64,000 nucleotides of DNA from an uncultured Pelagibacteraceae bacterium (GTDB lineage: Bacteria > Pseudomonadota > Alphaproteobacteria > Pelagibacterales > Pelagibacteraceae): the NCBI GenBank assembly GCA_902578255.1, contig CACHCH010000004.1, positions 1-64,000 on the forward strand, given 5' to 3'. This document shows positions 36,288-40,718 of this stretch, in pieces; positions within the stretch are counted from its first letter, which is position 1, and each line of letters begins with the position of its first letter. The position numbers were made by a program, and so were the translations under genes. The notes below the pieces were generated by a model, which was not told the DNA's origin, did no database searches, and worked only from the letters and a program-made list of their open reading frames with translations.

Positions 36288-37197
36288 TTTGTGTAAAAGC
36301 TTCGGCAAATTTTTCTGCTTCAAAAATCTGGAGATCATCTTCTTTTTCCCCTAATCCAAGAGCAATAATCGGTAACTTATATTTTTTAGCAACTGCTAAA
36401 AGAATACCACCTTTCGCTGTCCCATCTAATTTTGTCATTATTAGTCCTGTAATGGGTATAATTTTATTAAATTCTTCAACTTGGTTGATTACATTTTGTC
36501 CAGAGGTAGCGTCTAAAACTAAAACTACATCGTGAGGAGCCTCAGAGTCTATTTTTTTTGTCACGTTTGCAATTTTTTTGTATTCCTCCATTAAATTTTT
36601 TTTGTTTTGTAATCTTCCAGCAGTGTCTATCAAAACTTGATCGAATTGATTATTTACCGCTTCTTCTATTGCTTTATATGCCACTGAAGCTGGATCAGAT
36701 CCTTGTGATGATTTAGTGATTGAAACATCTACTTTTTTTGACCAATTTTCTAATTGCTCAATAGCTGCTGCTCTAAATGTATCTGATGCAGCAAGCATTA
36801 CTTTGTTTCCATTGCCTTTAAATATTTTACTAATTTTTCCTATGGTAGTTGTTTTGCCAACTCCATTAACACCAGAAATAAGTATTGCGTTAAGTTTTTC
36901 TTTTTTTTTAAAAAATTCAAAATTTTCTAAAGGTTTCATCAATTCGATTATATAATTTTTTAAAATAATATTTATTTCATCTGATGTATCTTTGTTTGGA
37001 TCAATTTTAGTTTGGGAAACAATTTCTCTAATTTCTGATGCAGCAGCAATACCAACATCTGATTGAATCAAATAATCTTCAATCATATCTAAAGTTTTGT
37101 CATCTATTTCTTTTTTAATGACAATATTTTTTAAACCAGAACTAAATGCTGACGCGCTTTTCTTAAAACCAGATTTAAATTTATCAAAAATTCCCAT
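36280..37197 (-). CDS. ftsY: Signal recognition particle receptor FtsY
   Basis: ILISGVNGVGKTTTIGKI; DTFRAAAIEQLENW; LIDTAGRLQNKKNLMEEYKK; TKLDGTAKGG. Confidence 0.97.
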   Translation of the reverse strand: MGIFDKFKSGFKKSASAFSSGLKNIVIKKEIDDKTLDMIEDYLIQSDVGIAAASEIREIVSQTKIDPNKDTSDEINIILKNYIIELMKPLENFEFFKKKEKLNAILISGVNGVGKTTTIGKISKIFKGNGNKVMLAASDTFRAAAIEQLENWSKKVDVSITKSSQGSDPASVAYKAIEEAVNNQFDQVLIDTAGRLQNKKNLMEEYKKIANVTKKIDSEAPHDVVLVLDATSGQNVINQVEEFNKIIPITGLIMTKLDGTAKGGILLAVAKKYKLPIIALGLGEKEDDLQIFEAEKFAEAFTQIN

Positions 37198-38021
37198 TAA
37201 ATTTTTATGTTAATTTCTTTAATATCAGAAACCGGTCCTTTCATGTGAATACTGTCGTTTTCATCAATAAATATTGATAACTTGCCAGTTGAAAACTCGA
37301 TATCTACTTTATTACCTGAAAGTCCATTTCTCAATGCAGCAAAAGCAGTAGCACAAGCTGCCGTACCACAAGCCTTAGTAAGACCCGCTCCTCTTTCCCA
37401 CACTTTAACTTTAATTAGTTCTTTATTAACAACTGTTGCTAAAGTGACATTGCATTTTTCTGGAAACAAGGGATGGTGTTCAATTTGTGGTCCAATTTTT
37501 TTTATTTCAAAATTTTCATTATTCTCAACAAAAAAAATGATATGAGGGTTACCAACATTTACTGCTGTACCTCCAGTATGATTATTATTATTTAGATCAG
37601 TTATTTTTATATTAAGGTTATTGGTATCCAATTCTTCAGAAAGTGGAATTTCATTCCATTTTGTTCTACCTTTCCCAATTTCTGTAGAGACTAGTTTTTT
37701 TCCTAATATCTCAGATTTTAAATCACCAGATTGTGTAGTTAAAGTTATTAATGATTTATTATTTTCTTTAGATAACAAATCTGCAACACACCTTGTTCCA
37801 TTTCCACATGCTCCAGAAGTTCCACCATCAGAGTTATAAAATTCTAGAGATGCATCAGAACTATCATTTTTAGTTATTAATATTAATTGATCACAACCTA
37901 TAAATTCTCTGTCACAAATTTTAATAATTTGCTCTTTGCTTAAATTAGTAATTTTTTGCCTATTATCTATAATGACAAAATCATTTCCTAAACCATCCAT
38001 TTTAAACGCTTTGATATCCAT
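37197..38021 (-). CDS. dapF: Diaminopimelate epimerase
   Basis: KMDGLGNDFVIID; ACGNGTRCVA; ACGTAACAT. Confidence 0.97.
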   Translation of the reverse strand: MDIKAFKMDGLGNDFVIIDNRQKITNLSKEQIIKICDREFIGCDQLILITKNDSSDASLEFYNSDGGTSGACGNGTRCVADLLSKENNKSLITLTTQSGDLKSEILGKKLVSTEIGKGRTKWNEIPLSEELDTNNLNIKITDLNNNNHTGGTAVNVGNPHIIFFVENNENFEIKKIGPQIEHHPLFPEKCNVTLATVVNKELIKVKVWERGAGLTKACGTAACATAFAALRNGLSGNKVDIEFSTGKLSIFIDENDSIHMKGPVSDIKEINIKI

Positions 38022-38059
38022 ATATAGATATTTAACTTATTTATTGACTTTTTGAACCT

Positions 38060-38179
38060 CTATTATAGGTTGTTGGCGTTTCCGCAAAAACATTAACTTT
38101 GCGGTGTCTTTGGAAACAAAGAGATCGACACTAGTCAGCGAGGCTTCGCCCACTAGTGCGATTACTGCTGTGAAAAAAT
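38060..38179 (+). ncRNA. Structured leader upstream of ffh with three hairpins (candidate ffh-associated RNA motif)
   Basis: CCGCAAA/TTTGCGG (38082-38104); GTGTC-TTTG-GAAA-CAAA..GACAC (38104-38131); CACTAGT..GCGA-GGCT-TCGC..ACTAGTG (38129-38158). Confidence 0.7.
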
Positions 38180-39538
38180 ATGTTTGAAAACTTAACAAAT
38201 AAATTTGAAGAAATCTTTTCTTCTTTAAAAAAATCACCATCACTTGATGAAACTCAAGTCGACGAGGGTTTAAGAGGAATTAGGCAAGCTCTTTTAGAAG
38301 CCGATGTATCTTTAGAGGTTGCTAAAGATTTTATTGAAAAAGTTAAGCCAAAAGCTTTAGGACAAGAGATTATTAGGTCAACGTCTCCAGGAGACATGGT
38401 TGTTAAAATTGTTTATGACGAGCTTGTAAGTTTGTTAGGAGAGGCTAACAGTGAAATAAATCTTAATGCAGTACCCCCAGTCCCTATGATGTTGGTAGGA
38501 CTTCAGGGCTCAGGTAAGACAACAACAACTGCAAAACTTGCCAAGTATTTAGAGAATAACAAAAAGAAAAAAGTCATGATGGTAAGTTTAGACATCTATA
38601 GACCAGCAGCTCAAGAGCAACTTAGATCTTTAGGAGAACAAAATAATATTTTAACCTTACCAATTGTTGAAGGGCAACAACCCACAGATATTTGTAGAAG
38701 AGCAATTGGTGCTGCAAATTTAAATGGCGCTGAGATAATTCTTTTTGATACTGCTGGAAGAACTCAAATTGACTTACAGATGATGAGTGAGATTAAACAA
38801 ATTGAAGGTGTAATTAATCCAACAGAAACATTCTTAGTAGCAGATTCTTTAACAGGTCAAGTTGCAGCATCTGTTGCAAAAGAGTTTAAAAATACTGTTA
38901 ATCTATCAGGAATTATTTTGACTAGAGCTGATGGTGATGCCAGAGGCGGTGCTGCCGTTAGTATGAAATATGTTTCTAATGTTCCTATTAAATTTTTAGG
39001 AATTGGGGAAAAAATTGAAAATCTTGAGGTATTTCACCCCGATAGAATAGCTAACAGAATTCTTGGAATGGGAGATATCGTTTCTCTTGTTGAAAAAGCA
39101 GCTCAAGATCTTGGTGAAGAAAATATTAAAAAAGCTGAAGAAAATCTAAAAAAGGGTCAGTTTTCAATGCAAGATTATTTGGCTCAATTGAGACAAATGA
39201 AAAAAATGGGAGGCATCGAAGGAATAATGTCATTTATGCCAGGAGTATCAAAAATTAAATCTCAAATGGACTCAGCTGGAATTGATGAAAGTATTATTAC
39301 TATAAATGAAGCTATTATTTTGTCCATGACAAAAAAAGAGAGAGAGAACCCAAAAATAATTGATGGTTCTAGAAAAAAAAGAATTGCTAATGGCTCTGGT
39401 ACTAATCCAGCCACTATCAATAAATTGTTAAAACAATTTAAAATGATGTCTGAAATGATGAAAAAAATGTCCAAAGGAAATATGAAAGGTATGTCTGATA
39501 AAGGAATACCACCAGAGCTATTTAACCAATTAAAATAA
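38180..39538 (+). CDS. ffh: Signal recognition particle protein Ffh
   Basis: [44 protein letters not shown]-rich C-terminal domain. Confidence 0.98.
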
Positions 39539-39552
39539 TAAAAGGAGAAGAC

Positions 39553-40017
39553 ATGTTAAAACTAAGATTATCAAGAGGAGGAACAAAAAAGCGTCCAGTA
39601 TATAAAGTTGTTGTAGCTGACAGCCGTTTTGCAAGAGATGGAAGATTTATTGAGAAAGTTGGATTTTTTAATCCACTTTTGCCTAAAGATAAAAAAGAAA
39701 GGGTCGGTCTCGAAGCTGAAAGAATTAAATATTGGCTTGGTCAAGGTGCCAAACCAACAACTAGAGTTGCTAGGATATTGGGAGAAAATGAGTTAATGCC
39801 TATGCCTGCAAACGGCAATAATCCTAATAAAGCTATTCCAAAAAAAGAAAGAAATAAAAAAGAGGACGATAAAAAAGAAGAAGCTCCTAAAGCAGATGCA
39901 GCACCAGCAACAGAAGCTCCTAAGGCAGAAACTCCAAAGGAAGAAGCTGCAAAGGAAGAAGTTCCTAAAGCAGACGCAGCACCAGCAGCAGAAGCTCCAA
40001 AGGAAGAAAAAAAATAG
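39553..40017 (+). CDS. rpsP: 30S ribosomal protein bS16 with K/E/A/P-rich C-terminal extension
   Basis: [42 protein letters not shown]. Confidence 0.97.
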
Positions 40018-40031
40018 TTTAAAAATTATTT

Positions 40032-40718
40032 ATGTGGCAAGCTCAAGTGTTTACACTTTATCCAGAAGTTTTTCCTGGTCCTCTGTCAAAAGGATTATAT
40101 GGAAAAGCTATGTCTAAAAAGTTATGGGATTTAAAGGTTGTTAACATAAGAGATGCAGCTGAAGATAAACATAAAACTGTAGATGACACACCTTATGGTG
40201 GTGGATCAGGAATGTTACTAAAGGCAGATGTCCTTGCTAAATCGTTAGATCAAAACAGAATTGAAGGTGAAAAAATTTTATATTTATCTCCAAAAGGAAA
40301 AAAATTTGATCAAAGCTATGCGAAAAAATTGGCAACTGCAAAATCCTTATCACTTATTTGTGGTCATTTCGAAGGCGTTGACGAGAGAGTATTATCTACA
40401 AGAAATATAGAAGAAGTAAGTATAGGAGATTATGTTTTGTCTGGAGGCGAAACAGCTGCATATGTTGTTATTGATAGTGTACTCAGGCTATTACCAGGGG
40501 TATTAGGGAATGATAATTCTAAGATCGAAGAAACTTTTGAAAATGGTCTATTAGAGTATCCGCAGTATACAAAACCTCAAATTTGGGAAGAAAAATCAGT
40601 ACCAGATGTACTATTATCAGGTGACCATAGTAAAATTAAAGACTGGCGTTTATCTCAATCTGAGGCTATAACACGCGACCGGAGACCAGATTTATGGGAA
40701 AAATATAAGAAAGACTAA
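40032..40718 (+). CDS. trmD: tRNA (guanine-N1-)-methyltransferase TrmD
   Basis: [36 protein letters not shown]. Confidence 0.97.

Follow-up and report, generated by a model that had tools for sequence, protein, structure and literature searches.

The ffh motif of Alphaproteobacteria as a possible leader of the S16–L19 operon

Meyer et al. (2009) described the ffh motif, a single bulged hairpin in the gap between dapF and ffh, from Candidatus Pelagibacter ubique (PMC2704228). The model of the corresponding Rfam family, RF01793, holds one hairpin whose 5′ flank is unpaired. RNA signal from the same dapF–ffh gap was obtained in S. meliloti, where sm5, with a predicted σ70 promoter and terminator, a length predicted at 108–258 nt and an array signal, was treated as an sRNA candidate (PMC2573895). 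In Bartonella an expressed ffH leader RNA was treated as an sRNA or leader candidate (PMC7717549). Neither RNA was given a function. A structured S16 leader has been reported before rpsP, usually with rimM, in Flavobacteria, and the same work calls the nearest gene a poor guide (PMC7247131). For the trmD operon, a 2024 review states that information on regulation is lacking (PMC10931766).

The locus studied here lies in the window, a stretch of 64,000 nucleotides from an uncultured Pelagibacteraceae bacterium. When the whole window was searched by cmscan with Rfam 15, a single match was obtained, RF01793 (ffh), at 38114..38167 on the + strand, spanning the full model from 1 to 52 (E 1.4e-7; 54.4 bits against a gathering score of 35). 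The element is therefore an RNA that is already known, and the guess in the initial annotation that it was the ffh motif of Pelagibacter proved right. The locus, the hairpin (P3 below) and the two conserved cytosines are those of RF01793, the score exceeds 35 bits and the match stands 5′ of ffh on the same strand. The differences lie in the flank (GAUC), which is unpaired in the published model and pairs here in a second helix, in a conserved 3′ tail and in a distribution wider than that obtained with RF01793.

The gap runs from the start of dapF, an ORF on the − strand (37197..38021, start 38021), to the start of ffh at 38180 and carries three hairpins. The ffh ORF (38180..39538, + strand, 452 aa) served as the tblastn query for downstream ffh. 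It is followed on the + strand by ORFs for rpsP, encoding ribosomal protein S16 (39553..40017; PF00886 match in the genome of the window), trmD (40032..40718; placed as trmD is in other operons) and rplS, encoding ribosomal protein L19 (40720..41289; assigned by synteny). As the gap between rpsP and trmD is only 14 nt, there is no rimM between them in the window, which means that RimM is not required there as an operon-encoded ligand. This gap is shorter than in most other Alphaproteobacteria examined.

The leader RNA (38078–38182) folds at −33.9 kcal/mol as compared to −20.5 ± 3.0 kcal/mol for 200 dinucleotide shuffles, none of which was as good (z −4.46). The first hairpin, P1 (38082..38104, + strand), is formed by CCGCAAA/TTTGCGG, with 38082–38088 paired to 38098–38104 around a 9-nt loop. 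P2 (38103..38126, + strand) reads GGUGUCUUUG-GAAA-CAAAGAGAUC, with the GAAA loop at 38113–38116, CAAAGAGAUC (38117–38126) as its 3′ arm and a G·G mismatch between 38106 and 38123. Since the register of P2 runs 38103–38112 with 38117–38126, the GAUC left unpaired in the Rfam model belongs to the 3′ arm of P2. P3 (38129..38158, + strand), which is the published motif, consists of 7 bp and 4 bp (38129–38135 and 38138–38141 with 38146–38149 and 38152–38158) separated by a CA/CC internal loop of one C·C and one A·C apposition. It is followed by the conserved 3′ tail CGAUUACUGCUGUG (38159..38172, + strand), which was recognized from the base profile 3′ of P3. The distance from the 3′ end of P3 to the ATG of ffh is 21 nt, and no clear Shine–Dalgarno sequence is visible in the leader of the window. 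On all these points, namely the positions of the three hairpins, the 9-nt loop, the GNRA cap, the CA/CC loop, the spacing to the ATG and the missing Shine–Dalgarno sequence, our analysis agrees with the initial annotation.

Covariation was examined in 63 distinct SAR11-family leaders, in which all three hairpins recur with compensatory changes. Over P1, P2 and P3, 99.4% of the cells are paired and 11 of 25 pairs show changes on both sides; the covariation score was 0.223, against 0.112 for shuffles and at most 0.091 for slid controls. P2 is the best supported helix, being paired in 99.8% of the cells with compensatory changes in six of the seven pairs tested, while P3 is paired in all cells with three compensating pairs and P1 in 98.2% with two pairs changed on both sides. 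The G·G mismatch of P2 was kept in 95/99 SAR11 leaders and the mismatch of P3 between its two cytosines (C136·C151) in 99/99. The position neighbouring the latter is, class-wide, mostly A·C, C–G, G–U or U–A, and P3 is further conserved in the apical GCGA/UCGC and in a fixed geometry of 7 + 4 bp. Among 24 leaders of other Alphaproteobacteria, picked for a compact 14-nt P2 hairpin one nucleotide 5′ of P3, P2 was paired in 98.3% of the cells, and four of five pairs were compensating. In a wider set of leaders from other Alphaproteobacteria a helix ends 1–3 nt 5′ of P3 in 75/86. The SAR11 tail has the consensus CGAUnnnUGYUGGA; in other Alphaproteobacteria the tail is U-rich. The comparison thus supports three helices, and the same alignments place P2 and the short 3′ tail within the element throughout the Alphaproteobacteria.

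The competing pairings fared differently. The second hairpin had been drawn in the initial annotation with an outer stem, GTGTC/GACAC. Its inner stem and GAAA loop are retained; the outer stem is not supported, with two pairs broken in 24/63 and 15/63 sequences and none compensating, and the inner stem alone compensates. The alternative GTTTCC/GGAAAC was paired in 65.7% as compared to 63.9% in shuffles, and an extension of P3, GAUCG/CGAUU, taken from the minimum-energy fold, is without covariation support. None of the three alternatives tested behaved as one of two conserved, mutually exclusive helices, and none was backed by covariation above the level of the shuffle and slide controls. The switch that had been proposed from these competing folds is therefore not supported. 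P1 and P2 overlap by only two nucleotides, the two G at 38103–38104. A long-range pairing between CUUCC at the 5′ end and GGAAG in the Shine–Dalgarno region is a possibility in SAR11 leaders; its mean over all SAR11 was −3.0 against −2.4 kcal/mol for shuffled pairings, a value that carries no control for relatedness and is apparently driven by some genera (e.g., TATTCC/GGAATA). The pairing is weak or missing in the genus of the window itself.

Upstream of P1, a −35-like TTGACT (38044..38049, + strand) is conserved in an alignment of 101 distinct SAR11-family leaders. The putative −10 region, TATTATAGGTT (38061..38071, + strand), contains TAGGTT at 38066–38071, 16 bp from the −35-like element, and corresponds to a TATAG/TATGTAG block conserved across SAR11. 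From the distance to this block and the 6–7 hypervariable nucleotides that precede it, a putative start zone is placed at 38071..38079 (+ strand), with the purine at 38078 as the likeliest start; transcription would then begin just 5′ of P1. A simple generic promoter scan made no call for the −35/−10-like pair of the window. The − strand of the same AT-rich block reads TATAAT (38067–38062), so that the divergent promoters of dapF and ffh may overlap in this region.

With RF01793, leaders were gathered from 47/61 genomes of the genus, 127/146 of the family and 106/386 of the class, which gave a working set of 210 loci; most of the genomes surveyed are incomplete or MAGs. A covariance model of P2, P3 and the tail (R2) raised detection in the class to 243/386 genomes, against 106/386 for RF01793. 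The R2 alignment was fitted to its own structure, and synteny with rpsP provides an independent test: all 27 new matches that could be checked against rpsP coordinates sit 1446–2504 bases 5′ of rpsP on the same strand. Nearly always there is one copy per genome. An absence of the motif from three SAR11 genomes that look complete (G168, G037 and G088) was dismissed, as in these rpsP and a partial ffh stand at the start of a contig and the leader is unassembled.

Downstream of the motif, ffh was found on the same strand in 204/210 loci by tblastn. Two of the six exceptions, L127 and L150, stop at the contig end. The other four (L093, L098, L110 and L121) come from one family, f49, and carry the motif directly 5′ of rpsP. 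Forty loci, each taken from its own genome and almost all representing separate families, were extended to about 6.7 kb, and in all 40 rpsP lies downstream in the same orientation; ffh lies between in 39 and is absent in L222, the extended L121. In another family, f23 (L366 and L368–L370), rpsP is found 2–4 kb 3′ of ffh with other DNA between, and trmD and rplS are farther away. The motif stays 5′ of ffh there though the operon is loosened.

Family f49 comprises 18 genomes, 55 to 97% complete (loci L222 and L256–L269). Close relatives by rpsP carry the label PS1 clade or OCS116 cluster, and the family is therefore taken to include the PS1/OCS116 clade. The search for Ffh (TIGR00959) succeeded in 0/18 of these genomes, with one 17-bit noise match, and in 0/6 of the best genomes. 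FtsY (TIGR00064) was above the cut-off in 0/18, with just weak matches of 17–26 bits. The 4.5S RNA (RF00169) was found in 0/4 genomes tested, while all four comparison genomes gave a match, in two cases below the gathering score. The signal recognition particle (SRP) thus appears to be missing from an entire family of marine Alphaproteobacteria with small genomes, and no published report of this loss was found in the open-access literature searched. The motif is nevertheless kept in 14/18 of the genomes. It sits between dapF and rpsP in 13 loci, and in the fourteenth the contig starts near the motif and continues into rpsP. P3 is 100% paired in f49 with two compensating pairs, which argues that it is still under selection. 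These neighbourhoods establish, as far as sequence comparison reaches, the link of the element to the operon and its persistence after SRP loss. Since a family lacking the SRP keeps the motif before rpsP, ribosomal-protein genes are a likelier target of the motif than ffh. The element could also be retained in f49 simply as the promoter-proximal UTR of the operon.

These results bear directly on an autoregulation of the SRP, in which Ffh, or Ffh with 4.5S RNA, would bind P3 and repress ffh. Regulation of ffh was suggested in print by Meyer et al. in 2009 (PMC2704228), the motif adjoins ffh in nearly all genomes and Ffh is an RNA-binding protein. However, in f49, where none of Ffh, FtsY and 4.5S RNA was detected, the element persists with compensating pairs, and the motif is, by a published statement, unlike the 4.5S site bound by Ffh (PMC2704228). 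We regard this explanation as distinctly unlikely, and in the reading we prefer the element is not an SRP-specific device. Two targets had been offered in the initial annotation, the SRP itself and the downstream ribosomal genes; the second gives the best fit, and the f49 genomes are evidence against the first as a general function.

Another explanation is a trans-acting small RNA terminated at P3, with ffh downstream by an accident of genome position. A terminator-like U tract follows P3 in 46/84 non-SAR11 leaders, against a background of 1.8% in the coding region of ffh and 4.3% elsewhere in the leader. This would suit such an RNA, as would the sRNA class of RF01793 in Rfam, the predicted promoter and terminator and the array signal of sm5 (PMC2573895) and the expression of the Bartonella RNA (PMC7717549). 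Yet the association with the operon is fixed class-wide, even after the loss of ffh, most SAR11 tails have no terminator (25/88 leaders have one), and the stem sequences vary freely while the structure is kept, unlike a base-pairing seed; a trans-acting RNA is accordingly judged unlikely. The same counts also fit attenuation at P3 in some members of the class, in line with the sRNA-like signals from S. meliloti and Bartonella. A passive structured 5′ UTR, which would guard the operon mRNA from decay or fix a constant expression with no ligand, is favoured by P1 at the probable 5′ end and by the lack of a known ligand. Stability by itself would not demand the conserved C·C mismatch, the apical GCGA/UCGC, the tail and the 7 + 4 bp geometry, and we consider this explanation very improbable.

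The explanation we prefer, though with no better than even confidence, is a 5′ leader acting in cis on the [ffh]-rpsP-(rimM)-trmD-rplS operon, with S16 or L19 probably serving as autogenous regulator. Its assignment as a leader is well supported by the comparison of genomes, a conserved structured RNA being found upstream of a ribosomal-protein operon; the ligand and the mechanism are what we infer. S16, TrmD and L19 are the candidate ligands because they are common to all operon forms observed, and S16 is the ribosomal protein nearest to the leader and the one for which a leader is on record in Flavobacteria (PMC7247131). In the proposed mechanism, a promoter just upstream would start the RNA beside P1, giving a transcript in which P1, P2, P3 and the conserved tail precede the first start codon. 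An excess of an operon product, most likely S16 and next L19, would bind the P2–P3 unit and thereby halt expression of the operon at P3 and its tail. In lineages with a U-rich tail this could take place by premature termination or pausing, and in SAR11, with 21 nt between P3 and the ATG, by a block of the translation start. In SAR11, control of the translation start, at about 20 nt from P3, is as likely as attenuation. A hairpin-stabilized pause at the tail, as in the his leader, was considered for the Y-G 11–12 nt after P3 as no more than a candidate idea.

Two observations count against the operon leader. The spacing in f23, with rpsP 2–4 kb after ffh, is one; feedback by S16 on a single transcript is less obvious there since other DNA separates the two genes. 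The tail of the window is the other, as it is not terminator-like and a terminator scan of the window called none. By gene position the leader can be likened to the S16 leader of Flavobacteria, which also precedes rpsP (PMC7247131); that leader belongs to another phylum, and in most Alphaproteobacteria ffh stands between the leader and rpsP.

Taken together, we consider it about an even call that the ffh motif is misnamed and that it is a two-to-three-hairpin r-leader of the S16–L19 operon of Alphaproteobacteria, under whose control ffh has come in most lineages and which is still selected in marine bacteria that have lost the whole SRP. The trmD operon (rpsP-rimM-trmD-rplS) has been described as one of the rare ribosomal-protein operons for which no regulation is known (PMC10931766). 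This widespread leader, which stays with the operon after ffh is lost, is a concrete candidate, and an orphan RNA family of 2009 becomes a testable r-leader. Such a leader would explain the coupling of SRP and ribosome production in one of the most abundant marine bacterial groups.
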